From positions 248,001-312,000 of the forward strand of contig JGZV01000004.1 of the NCBI GenBank assembly GCA_000741495.1: a stretch of DNA of 64,000 nt. The letters run 5' to 3'. The DNA is from Bifidobacterium thermophilum (GTDB lineage: Bacteria; Actinomycetota; Actinomycetes; Actinomycetales; Bifidobacteriaceae). Under the pieces are notes generated by a model. It was not told the DNA's origin. It saw only the letters and a program-made list of their open reading frames with translations, and did no database searches. This document shows, piece after piece, positions 10,606 to 55,350 of the stretch (position 1 is its first letter; the number at the start of each line of letters is the position of its first letter). Made by a program: the position numbers and the translations under genes.

Positions 10606-10814
10606 ATGCTAGCACGACCTCCATGCATTTCTGACCGTTTTCGGAGTCTTTTTTTTACGTGTCACGTTTGATGTTATGGCGACAGGCGACTTGCGGCAGC
10701 TGCTTGCGACATCTGCTTGCGGCCGGATGATATCCGATTGCACAGATGCCGGCGTATGCTTCCCGAGGCGATCGGAACGTTACGTGCAGACAGGACGCCA
10801 ACGGGTATCATCCC

Positions 10815-11010
10815 GGTTTACGTGGGAGATTATCGCGATTATGCCGATCCGCGGGAAAACTCCCAGCGACAGGATTATGCGACCCGCATGATTTCAACGA
10901 TGTGATTGGGAGTTCTTGCGAAACACCGTCGGATTGTGCAATTGTCCCGGAAGATTACCATCGTGTCGGCGGATTCGGCGCTTTTCTCCCGCATCCGTCG
11001 GGAATCCTGC
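10815..11010. repeat. Diverged family C element in the divIVA-yggT gap
   Basis: The 553-bp gap between divIVA and yggT carries a run of short GGGA/TCCC palindromic modules. Examples are GTGGGAGATTATCGCGATT near 10822, GCGGGAAAACTCCC near 10851, TTGGGAG near 10906 and TTCTCCCGCATCCGTCGGGA near 10984. The module GGGAG(A/G)TTATCG(A/C)G is shared with the 250-bp elements at 49.2 and 54.9 kb, but overall identity is much lower. No gene is seen in this gap. Confidence 0.55.
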
Positions 11011-16497: not shown

Positions 16498-16605
16498 GAT
16501 TTGTGAGCGAATCCTCACACGATGACAGCCGGACCAGCCCCACAGACCGATTTCAAACCACCCGACCGCCAACGTGTGAGCGAATCCTCACAGGGTGACG
16601 GCTGG
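16498..16605. repeat. Family B palindrome pair, period 73 bp
   Basis: The 412-bp gap between pilO and glyS carries two copies of a palindrome with core GTGAGCGAATCCTCAC, at about 16498-16532 and 16569-16605, spaced 73 bp. Each is followed by a conserved GATGACAGCCGG or GGTGACGGCTGG tail. The same unit occurs three times at 55.2 kb. The core resembles family A (TGTGA, eight bases, TCACA). Nothing gene-like was seen in 16606-16803. Confidence 0.7.
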
Positions 16606-35387: not shown

Positions 35388-35882
35388 CGCAATCCCTTAT
35401 CTCTTATTCTCTAGCTCTCTCAGGGCGGCACACTCTACCACGTTGGAATCGCGCGCCATGCTGTGTCCAACGACGGCAATCCCGACATTAGGATGCAATC
35501 GCTGTCATTGTTTCACACTGTACAACATGCTGCCAACCGTGGACGGAATGTATCATTCGGTGGAACGGAGCAAAGCGTGGGCCGGAGCGGGTTCCCAGTG
35601 CTGGACGGGCTCTTCGATTCCACAGCGGGCAGTTGCGCGGGTAATGCGCGTGGTATGGAAAAGTAACCATGGAACAAAACGATCCGGCGGATTGGGCAGC
35701 GATGCCACATCGTTGATGTTCCGCGGTTCTGTGATATGTGAGGATAGCGAGCGCCGCACGATGCAACCGCCAAGGTCTCCACATCCGCAATATCGCATAC
35801 CGAAATGCGTCGTACGGAACGGGAGCCGGAGCAAGGTGCCCGTGTCCACGGCGAACCTTAGCATGGCACCCGTAATGCAGTG
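35388..35882. other. Intergenic region before the TPP riboswitch
   Basis: About 495 bp between the divergent acyltransferase gene and the thiamine riboswitch. I see no convincing coding region and no copies of the palindrome families. It must contain the promoter of the thi transcript, but no clear -35/-10 pair could be chosen. Confidence 0.4.
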
Positions 35883-35968
35883 CAGGGGAGCCGAACCGGA
35901 AGGCTAGGCTGAGAAAGGCATGACGCCTGACCCTTAGAACCTGTTGGTTAGAACCATCGTAGGGAGCA
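35883..35968 (+). ncRNA. TPP riboswitch (THI element)
   Basis: The conserved core is visible in order: GGGGAGCC at the 5' side, GGCTGAGA, a variable P3 stem, ACCCTTAGAACCTGTT, then the P1 return strand TAGGGAGCA. TPP binding would report thiamine status. The last element (AGGGAG, 35961-35966) is also the ribosome site of thiM, starting at 35973, so control is probably at translation initiation. Confidence 0.93.
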
Positions 35969-35972
35969 GCAC

Positions 35973-37007
35973 ATGAGCCTGAACGTCTCATCTGACCAGT
36001 CATATCAGCCATACCATTGCGTCGCCGCACCCATTGGCATGGGCGGATCGTCACCGACTCCATCCGCGGCGGCACCGGTCGTTCCAACGCCAAACACCGC
36101 AGCATCACAGTCCGGCGAAACCCAACCGCATATCGATGACCTGCGCCACCGGATCGAAACAGCAACCACGCGAGTACGCGGCACCACCCCGCTCGCGCAA
36201 TCCTTCACGAACTTCGTGACCATCAATCTGGTCGCCAACGCGCAGCTGGCATCCGGCGGGACCGCAGCCATGAGCTTCCTGCCTGACGACGTGATTGACA
36301 CGGCCGCCATCGCCGGATCCACCTACATCAACGTCGGTACACTGCTGCCGTTCTTCAAGGACGCCCTCACGCAAATCGCCCACCGATTCCACGAGATGAA
36401 GCATCCGTGGGTGCTGGACCCGGTCGCCGCGGGCATCGGCGCCACGCGTACCGCCATTCTCACCGACTTCAAAGCCGCTCCCCCGACCATCGTGCGCGGG
36501 AACGCGTCTGAAACCATCGCGCTTGCCGACATGTGGAGTCTCAATACCAACACCGTCATCGGCGGTGCCAATACCCCCGAACCCAGCACGCGACCGGCCG
36601 GCGTGGAAGCCGTTGACGACGTCGATTCAGCGCAGAATGCCGCGGTCCAGCTCGCCCGATACCTGCGTGACCATAACGGGCTCGGCCATGCCGCAGTGGC
36701 CGTATCCGGCGCAACCGACCTGGTCACCGACGGCGACACCATCTACCGGCTGCCCGGCGGCAGTGCCATGATGACCAAGATCACCGGGGCAGGCTGCTCC
36801 CTTGGCGGCGTCACCGCCACGTATCTTGCCGTCACCGACCCGCTGACCGCGGCAGTCGGCGCATCCGCCCTCTACAACCGTGCCAGCGAGCAGGCCGAAC
36901 GCGTCAGCCACGGTCCGGGCAGTTTCCAAACCGCGTTCCTTGACGCCCTGTGGAACACGAGCGCGCGAACAGTCGCCCAGTCCACAATCACCGCGAGCGC
37001 AGCCTGA
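35973..37007 (+). CDS. thiM: Hydroxyethylthiazole kinase ThiM
   Basis: ThiM phosphorylates 4-methyl-5-(2-hydroxyethyl)thiazole for thiamine salvage. The ribokinase-fold enzyme shows SFTNFVTINLVANAQLASGGTAAM, HPWVLDPVAAGIGATRT, IVRGNASETIALA and the C-terminal anion hole KITGAGCSLGGVTATYLA with its catalytic Cys. The N-terminus carries about 50 extra residues rich in Pro, Ser and Thr before the kinase domain. 344 residues. Directly controlled by the TPP riboswitch, with thiE-thiD next. Confidence 0.94.
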   Translation: MSLNVSSDQSYQPYHCVAAPIGMGGSSPTPSAAAPVVPTPNTAASQSGETQPHIDDLRHRIETATTRVRGTTPLAQSFTNFVTINLVANAQLASGGTAAMSFLPDDVIDTAAIAGSTYINVGTLLPFFKDALTQIAHRFHEMKHPWVLDPVAAGIGATRTAILTDFKAAPPTIVRGNASETIALADMWSLNTNTVIGGANTPEPSTRPAGVEAVDDVDSAQNAAVQLARYLRDHNGLGHAAVAVSGATDLVTDGDTIYRLPGGSAMMTKITGAGCSLGGVTATYLAVTDPLTAAVGASALYNRASEQAERVSHGPGSFQTAFLDALWNTSARTVAQSTITASAA

Positions 37008-48929: not shown

Positions 48930-49003
48930 GGGCGATTAGCTCAGTTGGCTAGAGCGCCACCTTTACACGGTGGATGTCGGGGGTTCGAGCCCCTCATCGC
49001 CCA
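48930..49003 (+). tRNA. tRNA-Val (anticodon UAC)
   Basis: Full cloverleaf: acceptor GGGCGAT (48930-48936) pairs with ATCGCCC (48996-49002), discriminator A at 49003. The D arm GCTCAGTTGGCTAGAGC, the anticodon stem CCACC/GGTGG with loop containing TAC, and the T arm GGGGGTTCGAGCCCC are all present. UAC reads GUA and related Val codons. The CCA end is not encoded. Confidence 0.96.
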
Positions 49004-49155
49004 CTTGATACGCGGTGCATACGTGGTGCCGCAAACATGGGTTTTGCGTGTGATGCGCGTCGCCGACACAGCATCAAAATCAAGGCGGTCTTTTGACCTT
49101 AGGCGTCATGGTCGCGGCGATTGTTTTGAACACACACCCACCTAATTCGGCGGCC

Positions 49156-49403
49156 TTTGTGTGGGAGAACTCGACGATTTCCTGATTCGGCGTTGTTCTC
49201 CCGCGATCGGCGTGGGAGGTTATCGAGATTCTGTGCCGTCACGACAGTTCTCCCAACGGGAACGTTGGAATTCCGCGGTTCTTGGATGGCGCCTGTGAAG
49301 CCGTTTTCGGGAGGATGTCGCACAATCCGCCAATCGGCGACAAACTCCCACGAAACCACGGGACTTTATTCCCGATACAGCCCAATCGCAGTAATCTCCC
49401 GCA
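49156..49403. repeat. Family C element, copy 1 (about 250 bp)
   Basis: Nearly identical, by manual alignment above 90 percent, to the reverse complement of 54867-55113. It is built of palindromic modules with GGGAG and CTCCC ends about every 51 bp (49163, 49214, 49309, 49360), and degenerate modules continue to about 49470. No coding capacity is apparent. The 632-bp gap between tRNA-Val and the DUF3052 gene is otherwise empty apart from one hairpin. Confidence 0.85.
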
Positions 49404-49500
49404 TCAGTGCGGGAAGTTATCCGGCATCCGGCGTATACGATACAAATTCCCCGTCGCATTTGCGCGGGAATCCACCATACGCCACGCACCGCCTTGCCAA

Positions 49501-49536
49501 ATCGGTTACGCCGGAACCAATCCCCGCGTAACCGAT
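49501..49536 (-). terminator. Hairpin after the DUF3052 gene
   Basis: A perfect 11-bp stem, arms 49501-49511 and 49526-49536, 100 bp beyond the DUF3052 stop on the minus strand. Confidence 0.5.
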
Positions 49537-49635
49537 CGCAGGAAGATGAAATGACATCGACCGGTATTGACGCAAACCCGTACGCCCGACATGCCAGCCG
49601 GACGACACCGCCAGCCGACTCAGTCCGTCAACCGG

Positions 49636-50058
49636 TCAGTGCGCCGAACCTTTGCCGAAGGCACGCAGCTGGATACCGTTCCAATCCTTGCTCACCGTCA
49701 ACGGCGTGGCGGCATTCATGCCGGCGGTCTGCGCAGCGGACTGCACAGTACTCGCATTCGGAGCCCCCTCACGACCGGGCTTCGGGCACAACACCCACAT
49801 CGGGCCGTCATCGCCCAACACCGCATACGCATCAACGATAGTGTCGGCGAGCTCATCCTCGTCATCGCCGTCACGCCACCAAATGATGACCCCATCGACG
49901 GCGGAATCATAATCCTCGTCAACGAGTTCCTCGCCCGTCAACGTTTCGATCTTCTCGCGGATCGAATCATCGACGTCATCATCCCACAGCCATTCCTGCA
50001 CGATGTCCCCGGAGCGGAAACCGAACTCTTCAGCGTTTTGAAATGCCGTTTCAATCAC
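49636..50058 (-). CDS. DUF3052 family protein
   Basis: About 140 residues matching the actinobacterial DUF3052 pattern: FGFRSGDIVQEWLWDDDVDD, ELVDEDYDSAVDGVIIWWRDGD, MWVLCPKPGREG and a C-terminal VSKDWNGIQLRAFGK. Function unknown; members are small acidic cytoplasmic proteins. Start: a GTG at 50058 lies seven bases after TATATT, so the mRNA may be leaderless. A TTG at 50100 would add 14 residues but lacks a good site. It lies immediately downstream of ylbL on the same strand. Confidence 0.82.
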   Translation of the reverse strand: MIETAFQNAEEFGFRSGDIVQEWLWDDDVDDSIREKIETLTGEELVDEDYDSAVDGVIIWWRDGDDEDELADTIVDAYAVLGDDGPMWVLCPKPGREGAPNASTVQSAAQTAGMNAATPLTVSKDWNGIQLRAFGKGSAH

Positions 50059-50103
50059 GTTGCACAATATAGCAAGACACGCGAACTTATGTGTTACCAA
50101 GCC

Positions 50104-51013
50104 CTATGCGTGGACATCGCGTGCAGCCGCACACCCATCGCACGCCAAACGCAAGCCCCGATTCACACCGTGCAGTGCGGCAGCTTCTCCCCCCTTGCCT
50201 TGCCCGATAGCCACCAGCGCCTGATACGCCTCATCAAGCGTGGACACTTTCACGTCCCGCAAGCCGGATGGCACGTGGCCGACAACCTCATCACAGTTGG
50301 ATGCGGGAGCAAGGAACCATGCGGCGCCATCACGCTTCGCTCCAAGCATTTTCAGCCGAATACCGCCAATCGCGCCGACTTTGCCACCGTTTTCCATCGT
50401 CCCCGTACCGGCGATGATCTTACCGCCGGTCTCATCACGCGCCGTGAGCTTACTGATCGTACCAAGCGTGTACATCATGCCCGCGGACGGACCGCCAATA
50501 TCATCAATATGCATACGCACACGCACGCCACTGGTATCCACACCAAGCCGTTTCGCATACGCGAGCGCCTGCTTGGTAGCGGATTTCTGCGATCCGGACA
50601 TCTCGTGATGAGACTCCTTGTCGTAGTCCTCCGAACTTTGACCGGGCGGGAATACCGCTTCGCTGGGCAGTACGGTGGTGTCCGAACGCATATACATGGC
50701 AAGCGTCTCAATATTGGGCATCGCATACCCGGGGACGCCTGCGGCGTTGACCGTCACCATGAGCAGTTGCCCGGACTGCTTATGCGTCGCCACCCCCGAA
50801 ATCGCGATGATCTGCTTGCCGTCCGACGTACCGAGCACGTTGCGCGTGGGGCCGGGGGTTTCAACAACGTACGGGCTGGGCATGATCAGCACCAGAACAC
50901 ACAACAGGACACAAAACGCCCCCGGCATAGTAGCCGAGACTACGACGGTTGAAATCGCTACGGGCGCGGCGCAAAGATGCCACGGTGGCGCGGCGGATAC
51001 GTGTCAAGCTCAT
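50104..51013 (-). CDS. YlbL-like PDZ/Lon-type membrane protease (apparent frameshift)
   Basis: A membrane-anchored serine protease with a PDZ-like middle and a C-terminal Lon (S16) domain. The catalytic Ser is in DDIGGPSAGMMYTLG and the Lys in VGAIGGIRLKMLGAKRDGA. The mature start VPSPYVVE-like segment reads MPSPYVVETPGPTRNVLG. The frame holding the domains opens at 50928, but the basic N-terminus MSLTRIRRATVASLRRARSD is in another frame, joined if the five-C run at 50919-50923 (plus strand) is read as four (302 residues). ATG at 51013 lies seven bases after TAGTAT, a possible leaderless start. Divergent from the DUF2342 gene, a pairing recalled from other actinobacteria. Confidence 0.82.
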
Positions 51014-51180
51014 ACCCGCCATACTAGCCAGCACACCTGTCGAAGCGTCGCCGGCGATACGCCGCTGTAAGAGCTTGGCACCGGTTTCCTCACCTTGAGC
51101 GAACACGGGTGCAAAGGACTGTAGTATTGGGGATACTTAAGGCAATAACCGCGGCACATGCATACAAAGGATGACAGGTC

Positions 51181-52845
51181 ATGGACGAAAACGCGATACA
51201 CCAATGGCTCATCGATTGTTTCGGCCAAATCCAAGGGGAAATGGCCTGGCAGCAGCTTTCCCAGCTTCCGCAGGAGGTGCGCGACCAGCTGGCGCAACAG
51301 AATCCGGACAACCTGCCCAAACCCGATGAAGTACGCGCGATGATGAAAGCCTTCACCGAAGGCGGTCTCAACTCGCTGATGGATATGCAGCAGGCAGTCG
51401 ACCGCGGGCCGATCAACGTGAAACTCGCCAGCACCATCGCGCTGGAGCGCGCCAACGATGAGGAATCCTGGCATACCGTCAACGCGCAGGATGCTGCAAG
51501 CGTCCGCCGTGCGGCAAGCGAAGCGAACCTGTGGCTTGACAGCGCGTGCGCTTTCGACCCGGCTCCCGGCGAACCCGACGTGCTGACGCGAGCCGATTGG
51601 GTCAACGGGACACTCAACTCATGGGCGACATTCGCGGCACCAGTCGCCTCGGCGATGAATGAGGCACTCGCCTCGGTTGTCTCCGAACGATTGGGCGACA
51701 CGTTCGGCGGGGAAATCGCCGGCGTGTACGCAGGCCCCATTCCGATACCGATTCCTGACAATCTCAAGGATCCAGGCCAAATCGTCAAACTGCTGGCCAA
51801 CACCTCATTCGCCATGCAGCTCGGCCACGCCGCTGGCGATCTGTCTCACGAAGTACGCGGCAGTTTCGATCAAAGCGTGCCGCTGCTCGGCAATCCGGCA
51901 GGCGGAATCATCGCGCAAAACGCCATTGAATATGCGCGCTCACTGGACATCGACCAAAGTGAAGTGCTCGCGTTCCTCGCTTTGCAGGAGGAAGCGCACG
52001 CACGCCTGTTCGCGGCCGTCCCATGGCTCATGCCACGTTTTGAAGCACTGATCGGCAAGTATGCGCGTGGCACCCGCATCGACTTGGATGCGATGGAAGA
52101 ACAGCTGCGTGACGCGCAAATCATGAATCCTGACTCCTTCTCCGGGGCTGTGAACCTGACCAACGTGGCCATTCCGGACACTCCGGAACAGCGTGAAGCG
52201 CTGTCAAGCCTCGAACGACTGCTCGCCGCAGTGGAAGGCTGGGTGGATTGCGTCACGTGGAAAGCCGGCATGGCGCACCTGCCGCATCTTGACCAGTTGC
52301 GTGAGATGATGCGTCGTGAACGTGCCGTCGGCGGGGTTGCGCAACGCAGCTTCGAATCGCTGCTCGGCTTGCAGTTGCGCCCCAAGCGGCTGCGTGAGGC
52401 GGCTGACTTGTGGGCAAGTATCGACGCGCAATCCGGCATGGGGGAGCGCGACGCAAGATGGTCGCATCCTGATCTGTTGCCGCAACTGCCGAGCGAAACA
52501 GCAGCCCCGCACGCGGCATCGTCGCACAGTGACACGCCCGCCGATACGGCGACCGACGACACGCAGACCGCGTCCAGCATTGATTGGGATGCTGAATTGT
52601 CCAAACTGCTCGATGAGGATGCCCGGCAGCATGCAGAGTCCGAAACCGGTGACAGCGCCAATGCCGGTGGCAGTGATGCCAGTGATATCAAAGCCAGCGA
52701 TGCCAAAGCCGGCGGCAATACTCCGGCGCATGATGCCGGGAATTTGCGCAGCTCAGGCGATGCCGACAACACGAACGGCGACGCCGACGGCAAGCCCGGG
52801 CAGGAAGGTGAAACCGGCGCGGACGAGCCAGGCGAAAGCCGGTAG
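51181..52845 (+). CDS. DUF2342 zincin-like protein (degenerate HExxH)
   Basis: A zinc-dependent-metalloprotease-fold protein of the DUF2342 family, about 554 residues. The family core at about 150-390 includes DTFGGEIAGVYAGPIPIPIPDN, DQSEVLAFLALQEEAHARLF and a following VPWLMPRFEALIGKYARG. The usual HExxH zinc motif is QEEAH here, so the first His is missing. As I recall, one actinobacterial subfamily similarly has REAAH, so peptidase activity is doubtful. The C-terminal 130 residues are acidic and low-complexity. It diverges from ylbL; ATG at 51181. Confidence 0.82.
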   Translation: MDENAIHQWLIDCFGQIQGEMAWQQLSQLPQEVRDQLAQQNPDNLPKPDEVRAMMKAFTEGGLNSLMDMQQAVDRGPINVKLASTIALERANDEESWHTVNAQDAASVRRAASEANLWLDSACAFDPAPGEPDVLTRADWVNGTLNSWATFAAPVASAMNEALASVVSERLGDTFGGEIAGVYAGPIPIPIPDNLKDPGQIVKLLANTSFAMQLGHAAGDLSHEVRGSFDQSVPLLGNPAGGIIAQNAIEYARSLDIDQSEVLAFLALQEEAHARLFAAVPWLMPRFEALIGKYARGTRIDLDAMEEQLRDAQIMNPDSFSGAVNLTNVAIPDTPEQREALSSLERLLAAVEGWVDCVTWKAGMAHLPHLDQLREMMRRERAVGGVAQRSFESLLGLQLRPKRLREAADLWASIDAQSGMGERDARWSHPDLLPQLPSETAAPHAASSHSDTPADTATDDTQTASSIDWDAELSKLLDEDARQHAESETGDSANAGGSDASDIKASDAKAGGNTPAHDAGNLRSSGDADNTNGDADGKPGQEGETGADEPGESR

Positions 52846-52942
52846 TACCGGCAATCCCCGGTAATTACGGCAGTTGACAGTACCGTACAGCCGACCATCC
52901 CACAAGGCGCAGAGCACCATGATGCCCTGCGCCTTCAGTATG

Positions 52943-54463
52943 TCACGCAAGGAACCGGCTGGGGCGACGCCTCACCCCGCTGCCATTGGACTGACGGTCC
53001 GCGAATGACAAGTGCAGCGTATCCTCCGCACGCGTCACCCCCACATACATCAATCGACGCTCCTCCTCAAGCGCCTCCCCCGGCGCCGGCGAACCATACG
53101 GCAGCAGTCCTTCGGAACATCCGATAAGAAACACATGCTTGAATTCCAAACCCTTCGACGCATGAATCGTGGACACGGTCACCGCACCCTTCGTGCCCGC
53201 AATCCCCAGCGCTTCAAGCATCGCCGCCTTCTCCTGAGCGTCATCGGCAAGCGAAGAAGCCTGCCAGCCTGCATCACGACGGACACGAAAACGGACGCCT
53301 TGCGCACGCAACGCCGCACACACCGGCTGCTGCTGCGCGTTGATCCTGGACAGGACCGCGATATCCGACGCCGGTACGCCTTGGGCGATCAGCCGGGCGA
53401 TATGCGTGGCAACCCCCTGCGCCTCCTGCTCATCATCAGCATATCGTGTGCTCGCCACACGTGAACCGTCACCACGGCCGGATTCCAAGCGCAAATAATC
53501 CCCACGCTCCGGCGAAGCGGCAAGCACACGGTTGGCATATCCGACAATCTGCGGCGTAGAACGGTAATCCGTACGCAAACTGATATCAGCGGCGACCGGA
53601 GCGAACTCCCGTGTGAAATGCAGCAGATCATAGCTACTTGCCCCGGCGAACGAGTAAATCGTCTGCGCAGGATCGCCCACCACACAAATATTGCGGTTAT
53701 CCCCCAGCCAGCGGGTCAACAGGCGATGCTGCAACGGTGAGACATCCTGGTATTCGTCAACCGTCAGCCAACGGATCGACGAGCGGATGACGCGGGCGGC
53801 ATCAGCATCATCATCAATGACATGGCACACCATGAGCAGGATATCGTTGAAATCAATCTCCCCTTTCGAAGATTTTTCAATCTCATACGCGGTATACACG
53901 TCGGCAAACTGTCCGGCCTCCAAACCGATAGGCGGGCGGCGGCCGACCGCGGCGCATACTCGTGCATAATCGTCCGGAGCGACAAGCTGAACCTTACACC
54001 AGTTGATTTCGGCAAGCACATCACGCACTGCGGCGGACCCCGTCTGAGACGGGTCAAGTCCTTCAGGATTAATCGTGCGGCGCAACGCATTCGCCGTCAG
54101 CTCGTGGGGACGATTGGTGACATGCGGGAACGGAGCCTCACCGCACACGTCAGGCCACACCCGACGAAGCTGGTGGAGAGCCGCCGAATGAAACGTCGCG
54201 GCAGTGACCTGATCGCCCACCCCGAGAGAAGCAAGCCTGGCGCGCATTTCAGCCGCCGCCTTGACCGAGAAGGTGACCGCGAGCACGCCGCGGGTATCCC
54301 ACACACCCGACGTGCACGCATATGCGATACGCCGGGTGATGGTGCGCGTCTTACCGGCGCCAGCGCATGCCACAATCCGTACAGGCCCCTCAAGTGTCGT
54401 CGCGGCTTGACGCTGCGCGTCATCCAACCCGGCAAGCACATCATCGTCAACCGTCTCATCCAT
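52943..54463 (-). CDS. UvrD/PcrA-like superfamily 1 DNA helicase
   Basis: An ATP-dependent 3'-5' helicase. Motif I VACAGAGKTRTITRRIAY, motif II LTVDEYQDVSPLQHRLL, motif III VVGDPAQTIYSFAGAS, motif V TVSTIHASKGLEFKHVFL and motif VI RRLMYVGVTRAEDTL are intact. 506 residues is short, with reduced 1B/2B insertions and no HRDC tail, resembling the smaller actinobacterial UvrD2-like enzymes. The start follows CACAAT by eight bases, so translation may be leaderless. Convergent with the DUF2342 gene. Confidence 0.93.
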   Translation of the reverse strand: MDETVDDDVLAGLDDAQRQAATTLEGPVRIVACAGAGKTRTITRRIAYACTSGVWDTRGVLAVTFSVKAAAEMRARLASLGVGDQVTAATFHSAALHQLRRVWPDVCGEAPFPHVTNRPHELTANALRRTINPEGLDPSQTGSAAVRDVLAEINWCKVQLVAPDDYARVCAAVGRRPPIGLEAGQFADVYTAYEIEKSSKGEIDFNDILLMVCHVIDDDADAARVIRSSIRWLTVDEYQDVSPLQHRLLTRWLGDNRNICVVGDPAQTIYSFAGASSYDLLHFTREFAPVAADISLRTDYRSTPQIVGYANRVLAASPERGDYLRLESGRGDGSRVASTRYADDEQEAQGVATHIARLIAQGVPASDIAVLSRINAQQQPVCAALRAQGVRFRVRRDAGWQASSLADDAQEKAAMLEALGIAGTKGAVTVSTIHASKGLEFKHVFLIGCSEGLLPYGSPAPGEALEEERRLMYVGVTRAEDTLHLSFADRQSNGSGVRRRPSRFLA

Positions 54464-54532
54464 ATTTCGCTATTGTGTCAGCCGGCACGGCTTGACGCAA
54501 ACCGGCTGAAGGTCCGTGGGAAGCGGGCGGGA

Positions 54533-54725
54533 AGGGTGCAGTGGGGGGGTGCGGGGGCATACGGGAGCACGTGAGGTCTGAGAGGTGCGGGGAGATGAGG
54601 GAGGTGAGGTGAGGAATAGGGGGGGTGTGAGAGGTGTGTGGGTGTGGGGGTGTGCGGAGTGCGCGGGTGCAGAGCGTGGGATGCGGGGTGTGAGGATGCG
54701 CGTGGTGTGGTGGGGGCAAGTGGGA
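54533..54725 (+). other. G-rich, GT/AG-biased tract (possible G-quadruplex region)
   Basis: About 190 bp in which the plus strand is almost free of C and holds repeated runs of three to seven G separated by short GT or GA tracts. It lies upstream of the helicase gene within the roughly 1-kb gene-free stretch 54464-55479. Open frames on either strand here are low-complexity and not protein-like. Confidence 0.6.
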
Positions 54726-54866
54726 ACGAATGCTTGGGATGCGCGAATCGTGCTTGACGGCGTGTCGCGTATGGCAACTGCTGTGCGTGGGATTTCTGTG
54801 CTTGAGGCTTCCGTATGTGGGATTGCCGCTTAAACACGGGGTCGCCGTGCGCGGGCTTCCGTGCCG

Positions 54867-55113
54867 ATCGCGGGAGATTACCGCGAACGGGTTGTATCGG
54901 GAATAAAGTCCCGTGGTTTCGCGGGAGTTTGTCGCCGATTGGTGGATTGCGCGACATCCTCCCGAAAACGGCTTCACAGGCGCCATCCAAGAACCGCGCG
55001 ATTCCAACGTTCCCGTTGGGAGAACTGTCGCGACGGCACGGAATCTCGATAACCTCCCACGCCGATCGCGGGAGAATAGCGCCGAATCAGGAAATCGCCA
55101 AATTCTCCCACAT
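54867..55113. repeat. Family C element, copy 2 (inverted)
   Basis: Reverse complement of the element at 49156-49403 with only scattered substitutions. It shows the same GGGAG/CTCCC modules: CGGGAGATTACCGCG at the left end, GCGGGAGTTTGTCGCCG, and AATTCTCCCACA at the right end. The two copies bracket a 5.5-kb block from the DUF3052 gene to the helicase gene. Confidence 0.85.
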
Positions 55114-55174
55114 AAACGCCGCCGTACAAGCCGCTCCATTCGGGCTCCCGTTCACACCGACACCTAACAGCCCG

Positions 55175-55350
55175 ATGTGTGAGCCAAACCTCACAAAACG
55201 ACACCCACACCGACCGAATCGGCGCACACACCACAACCCAACCCGCCACCGTGTGAGCCAATCCTTACAAAGTGACGGTCGGCCAGACCGAACCACCACC
55301 ACAGGAACGTCACAACCGCCACCGTGTGAGCCAAACCTCACAGGTGACCC
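55175..55350. repeat. Family B palindrome array, 3 copies, period 73-74 bp
   Basis: Three copies of GTGTGAGCCAA(A/T)CCT(C/T)ACA with GTGAGCC cores at 55179, 55253 and 55326, spaced 74 and 73 bp. They match the pair at 16.5 kb. The last copy ends about 130 bp before the phosphotransferase-like gene. Confidence 0.75.

Follow-up and report, generated by a model that had tools for sequence, protein, structure and literature searches.

We analyzed a 64,000-nt stretch of bifidobacterial DNA (the window; contig JGZV01000004.1, positions 248,001 to 312,000) in which a 5.5-kb block of genes is bracketed by two inverted copies, E1 and E2, of an intergenic element of ~245 bp. The genome of the window (G000) comprises 2.1 Mb in 12 contigs, and window positions are those of this contig (C4) minus 248000. 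The explanation that we favor, with about even confidence, is that E1 and E2 are paralogous copies of a dispersed, cis-acting array of helically phased words (here GGGAG/CTCCC) mirrored about a conserved core of ~23 bp. Such an element would be a docking array resembling bacterial interspersed mosaic elements (BIMEs), in which the core is shared and the word is specific to the lineage. This explanation draws on the copy number, the fixed architecture, the slow change of the words, the occurrence of the same core with other words, whole-turn spacings and the homogenization of paralogs, all of which were observed directly.

Architecture and copies of the element

A repeat search of the window returned one long inverted pair, with arms at 49148-49402 and 54870-55124 (255 nt each, 5467 nt apart). 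The arms are 93% complementary (237/255), and their longest exact run is 48 nt; five mononucleotide shuffles of the entire window gave maxima of only 15-20 nt for inverted exact matches. A preliminary description of this DNA had given the ends of the pair correctly to within a few bases. It had also called the repeats near-identical; the strong match stands, but at 93% identity. The family model described below (R1) places E1 at 49160..49403 on the + strand (178.2 bits) and E2 at 54869..55112 on the - strand (174.2 bits).

The mosaic of GGGAG...CTCCC palindromes noticed earlier is real and has more regularity than was first noted. The half-sites alternate in orientation at element offsets 2, 38, 54 and 90 in one arm and 149, 185, 200 and 236 in the other, corresponding to steps of 36 and 16 bp and a period of 52 bp. 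These offsets are mirror-symmetric about the middle of the element, and both strands of many copies are recognized by the model. The core, AAWCGTTGGAAWTCCGCSRTTCT, is the centre of the mirrored array; it (as AACGGGAACGTTGGAATTCCGCGGTTCTTG) sits between element positions 90 and 149. In one copy (L006) all eight half-sites are exact pentamers, and the other copies miss one or more. Within E1, all on the + strand, module 1 (49163..49202) has GGGAG at 49163 and CTCCC at 49198 (offsets 2 and 37), module 2 (49214..49254) has them at 49214 and 49250 (offsets 53 and 89) and module 3 (49309..49349) at 49309 and 49345 (offsets 148 and 184). Module 4 (49361..49400) has a degenerate GGGAC, followed by CTCCC at 49396 (offset 235). 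The E1 core, CGTTGGAATTCCGCGGTTC, found by pattern search at 49263..49281 on the + strand (G000:C4:297263-297281), matches the genus-wide pattern exactly. The E2 core, CGTTGGAATCGCGCGGTTC, at 54991..55009 on the - strand, differs from it at two positions, as seen in the sequence and in a four-way alignment.

When E1 was used as a query against G000, 12 places were found at E < 1e-10. Thirteen G000 copies were aligned to build R1, a sequence-only model, so that 13 of the 15 places it recovers in this genome were its training set. Run against 112 genus genomes, the model had matches at E <= 0.001 in nine: four with at least 17-18 matches each (the best 18 candidates per genome were scored) and five with one or two weak matches each. 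A deeper search of these four genomes gave 61 places at E <= 3.3e-18, namely 15 in G000, 22 in B. boum LMG 10736 (G049), 12 in G046 and 12 in B. thermophilum DSM 20210 (G119). The further copies for which the preliminary description had proposed a search are thus plentiful, and its suggestion of a non-autonomous dispersed element is backed by 15 strong copies in G000 and 46 in the three relatives. The window itself contains a partial, degraded third copy at 10788-10935 on the - strand (R1, E 1.4e-10; 10788-10997 at its widest). By raw count, six of the 13 aligned G000 copies (L001, L004, L005, L007, L008 and L010) are no more than 1.5 kb from a tRNA gene.

The words change more slowly than their surroundings. 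In 13 ortholog pairs between G000 and B. boum, the differing cells number 16/510 in word columns, 15/325 in the core and 221/2350 elsewhere (word versus other, p 5e-7). In 15 further ortholog pairs, which share genomes and are not independent, the counts are 25/563, 27/375 and 421/2614, respectively (word versus other, p 1.6e-15). Overall, the rate of change between orthologs is three- to fourfold lower in the half-sites than in the remainder. Even allowing for the way in which the columns were chosen, the words are conserved while the surrounding sequence drifts.

A shared core with lineage-specific phased words

The weak model matches in other species led us to the core. A search with a 19-base core pattern, allowing one mismatch, was positive in 74 of the 112 genus genomes; the reversed pattern, used as a control, had no hits. 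In an order-wide sample of 297 genomes the core was present in 15 (7/14 of the genus and 8/283 of the others), again with no hits for the control. Unselected flanks at 77 loci from 32 genomes widen the core consensus to about AAWCGTTGGAATTCCGCCRTTCT. These 77 core loci, all outside the clade of G000 and its relatives, are a non-random sample in which multi-core genomes were deliberately oversampled. At 26 of them, from 11 of the 32 genomes, some 8-mer occurs at least four times, in both orientations; the same test is passed by 12/7700 shuffles and by 3/56 real control windows. If non-clade loci are drawn one per genome, six of the 28 pass (L119, L120, L129, L130, L140 and L146).

The words around these cores are not those of the window. 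They include CGCGTGACA in G005, ACCGTGGCA in G041, TGGGACAA in G050, GGGACTCA in G051, ACCGCCCGA in G062 and G071, and GTCCCGGAA in G093 and others; GGGACAAC and GTCACGCG are likewise array words. One word is common to several loci of a genome, some genomes have more than one word, and words mostly differ among genomes. The E2 locus of B. thermophilum bears an array of yet another word with a variant core, and a second, weaker such place occurs elsewhere in its genome. In genomes outside the genus (L211-L214), cores are flanked by their own mirrored word pairs, GTGTCCAC/GTGGACAC and CGCACGTAATT/AATTACGTGCG, the latter pair being common to two species of one genus. Another recurrent intergenic motif, resembling TTGGCCTATAACC with GACACACA beside it, was seen in G000 and G071 (L109 and L028).

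Steps of 34 and 17 bp (period 51) recur alongside the different words of G005, G041 and G050, steps of 33 and 18 bp are found in G051, and in G062 and G071 20-bp steps lead outward from the core in either direction. Spacings of up to 130 bp between words of the same orientation (36 distinct values from 11 genomes, each counted once per genome) gather around multiples of 10.4 bp (p 2e-6, Rayleigh R 0.60, phase -14 degrees). The same 36 values show no clustering at multiples of 11.5 or 12 bp. Whole-turn spacing of this kind points to proteins that would sit on one face of the DNA.

A second phased array adjoins E2. Its unit is an 18-bp dyad, TGTGAGNNNANCCTCACA, with a period of 73-74 bp (seven helical turns), present in the window at 55178-55342 and 16502-16592. 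The site counts are 44 for G000, 46 for B. boum, 117 for G046 and 65 for B. thermophilum, with up to 11 units per array. The dyad is clade-specific, as none was found in six other species searched.

Under the docking-array explanation, a lineage-specific DNA-binding protein would recognize the words and assemble cooperatively on one face of the helix, and a more conserved factor would recognize the core, together forming a BIME-like nucleoprotein node that would affect local chromosome structure or insulate neighboring genes. New copies would arise rarely, most would be inherited vertically and gene conversion would homogenize them; that E1 and E2 are inverted would then be incidental. A broader version, which we put forward only tentatively and think somewhat doubtful, is a genus-wide nucleoprotein system with one conserved core, in which phased word arrays are replaced wholesale between lineages; it would imply one or more new DNA-binding proteins diversifying together with their chromosomal sites. 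Specificity that diversifies in step with sites can be likened to REP sequences (repetitive extragenic palindromes) and their associated tyrosine transposases (RAYTs), or to partition incompatibility, but the protein implied here has not yet been described.

Several observations weigh against the docking-array explanation. No binding protein could be linked to the words. Choosing the word columns by the family consensus biases the comparison toward conserved columns. Related elements share spacings and are not independent; therefore, the p-value for phasing is too small. Outside the words, the consensus shows little self-complementarity: its best value is 40%, shuffles average 36%, and 20 of 1000 shuffles reach 40%. 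As many as 51 of the 77 core loci outside the clade are without any word repeated four times, and cores without arrays are therefore common. Finally, the elements stand between convergent, divergent and co-directional genes alike, so that no single regulatory role is indicated. To look for a trans-acting gene near the arrays, the open reading frames (ORFs) around 11 array loci were listed, and no recurrent neighbor was evident by eye; these ORFs were not subjected to a homology search.

The palindromes could instead belong to a structured non-coding RNA family of GGGAG...CTCCC hairpins, as the preliminary description had also suggested. Facing words are able to pair, and the E1 strand folds slightly better than its shuffles (z -2.2). 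We nevertheless regard this as improbable. Rfam gave no match at either gathering or E-value thresholds. In the consensus fold the 5-bp stems formed by half-site pairs are invariant rather than covarying, and compensatory changes fall almost only in weak minor stems. Permutation of arms among modules revealed no arm-to-arm covariation in any of six genome groups; this stricter test was used because a looser one, allowing two mismatches per five bases, returned 546 mostly spurious pairs in the boum clade. Helical phasing, moreover, is expected of DNA and not of RNA, and so counts against an RNA.

Locus history, inversion and mobility

The block enclosed by E1 and E2 (49636..54463) contains the genes that the preliminary description had named: DUF3052 (-), a YlbL-like Lon_C protein (-), Zincin_2, the earlier DUF2342 (+), and a UvrD-type helicase (-), as assigned by Pfam and followed by blastn synteny. 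The Zincin_2 protein is 99% identical to that of B. boum, in line with a window genome close to this species. E1 is located between a tRNA-Val(tac) gene just upstream (48930..49004, + strand; Rfam and ARAGORN) and the convergent DUF3052 gene, whose 3' end faces it, and E2 lies between the divergent helicase and APH-domain genes. Both elements are present at this locus in G000 and B. boum, and neither is there in B. thermophilum or G046.

Recombination between E1 and E2 could in principle invert the 5.5-kb block and make it a phase-variation cassette. The 255 bp of inverted homology at 93% would allow this, and some sites suggest gene conversion between the two copies (see below). Yet by blastn synteny the block runs the same way in all four species (one genome each: G000, B. 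boum, B. thermophilum and G046), two of which are without the pair, and inversion is rejected at the species level. The enclosed genes are of housekeeping type, and Pfam detected no recombinase among these four genes and the right-hand neighbor. Since E1 and E2 are members of a dispersed family, their inverted arrangement needs no special explanation, and we consider a cassette very improbable. The preliminary description had named a single orientation together with a lack of other copies as what would refute it; only one orientation was found, but copies elsewhere are many.

In B. boum, two more inverted copies lie 2.4 kb apart at L074 (G049:C15:152600-159600), where an adjoining 633 bp is 100% identical in inverted orientation. 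This pair is a better inversion candidate than the pair in the window. A long tandem expansion of GGGAG...CTCC modules on C7 of B. thermophilum (L094:12600-14000) suggests that arrays grow and shrink by recombination.

Copies group mostly by locus across species and not by genome, and most are therefore old. Near-identical paralogs occur at unlinked loci, C1:400505 and C2:142139 (95.6%). With the B. boum orthologs this quartet has nine paralog-type sites and one ortholog-type site, and both flanks of each locus are orthologous. The corresponding four-way comparison of E1 and E2 gave three paralog-type sites, which are central, seven ortholog-type sites, mostly near the ends, and none of the third type. 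That pattern, as expected of gene conversion but comprising few sites, suggests conversion between E1 and E2. On the whole, paralogous copies have been homogenized by gene conversion, and the unlinked quartet is the clearer case.

The same near-identical paralogs would fit a non-autonomous mobile element, similar to a BIME or a miniature inverted-repeat transposable element (MITE), whose words are sites for a transposase or recombinase acting in trans, with lineage-specific words tracking lineage-specific enzymes. Copies are dispersed, copy sets vary between species, and the window pair, shared by G000 and B. boum, is missing from that locus in B. thermophilum and G046. Two B. boum copies were compared with G000, yielding one ambiguous case: a copy within a ~640-bp stretch with a ~13-bp direct repeat at its flanks, the repeat being single in G000. 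A deletion in G000 explains this case equally well. The element ends carry a word, and neither clean ends nor target duplications were found at E1 and E2, where no empty site could be read from the strongly diverged intergenic flanks in G119 and G046. Copies clustering by locus, most of them old, and constraint on the words rather than only on the ends also argue against mobility. As claimed earlier, the copies are free of a transposase: five ORFs over E1 and E2 gave no Pfam family match, so none is encoded there. The Y1 transposase family (PF01797) is present in only one of 15 genomes and in none of the four clade genomes. We consider a mobile element rather unlikely, though by no means far-fetched. 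In its specific form of a RAYT/REPIN system it was ruled out by the absence of Y1 in 14 of the 15 genomes, in a search confined to Y1 transposases.

Two other features of the window were recorded. A G-rich low-complexity stretch on the + strand (54520-54720) lies between the helicase gene and E2, and the sequence at this place looks different in B. thermophilum and G046. A thiamine pyrophosphate (TPP) riboswitch was identified by Rfam at 35874-35982 with a score just over gathering.

Comparison with known systems

Plasmid partition sites such as F sopC and P1 parS consist of phased inverted repeats with specificity that differs between lineages, sometimes with a host-factor site between the arms. 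More generally, partition and attP sites have a core with mirrored arm sites, and their specificity diversifies as in incompatibility. The elements could thus be dispersed centromere-like or recombination-like sites of this kind. In favor are the core with mirrored arm words within ~245 bp, the helical phasing, the lineage-changing specificity and the tRNA genes near six of the 13 aligned copies. On the other hand, there are 12-22 copies per chromosome, the arrays are complete and not split into attL and attR, and no partner or linked partition or integrase gene turned up, although no dedicated search for one was made. We think this account unlikely.

REPIN elements consist of two inverted words with a variable spacer. 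Our element differs in having four modules and a core, no RAYT and members mostly inherited in place. MITEs are likewise small, non-coding and dispersed, with inverted repeats, but no defined terminal repeats or target duplication were found here, and the words are repeated internally and conserved. The BOX elements of Streptococcus pneumoniae are similarly modular intergenic repeats, although we know of no lineage-specific word set around a conserved core among them.

The closest parallel is with BIMEs. In PMC2817692, these intergenic arrays of REP sequences are described as having species-specific words, regularly spaced in alternating orientation and bound by several proteins; they coevolve with RAYTs and were proposed to be non-autonomous mobile elements mobilized by them. 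The bifidobacterial elements are similar in their palindromic words, alternating orientation, regular spacing and intergenic placement, as seen from the offsets and flanking genes. They differ in the lack of a Y1/RAYT gene in 14 of 15 genomes and in having 12-22 strong copies per genome, not more than 100. A core that is constant throughout the genus, whole-turn spacings and the mirror layout about the core are further differences. The GTAG/CGTC tag of BIMEs was not seen, but none was sought. Since the geometry is BIME-like but the enzyme and copy number are not, we have not filed the element as a BIME member. A literature search found no description of these elements, most subscription papers falling outside its coverage.

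Should the words be binding sites, the chromosomes of bifidobacteria would have dispersed, phased docking arrays in which the word turns over between lineages and the geometry and core persist. DNA recognition would here be co-diversifying in the absence of a known transposase, a rare situation open to direct test. It would also mean that inverted repeats of this kind should not be read by default as invertible switches.

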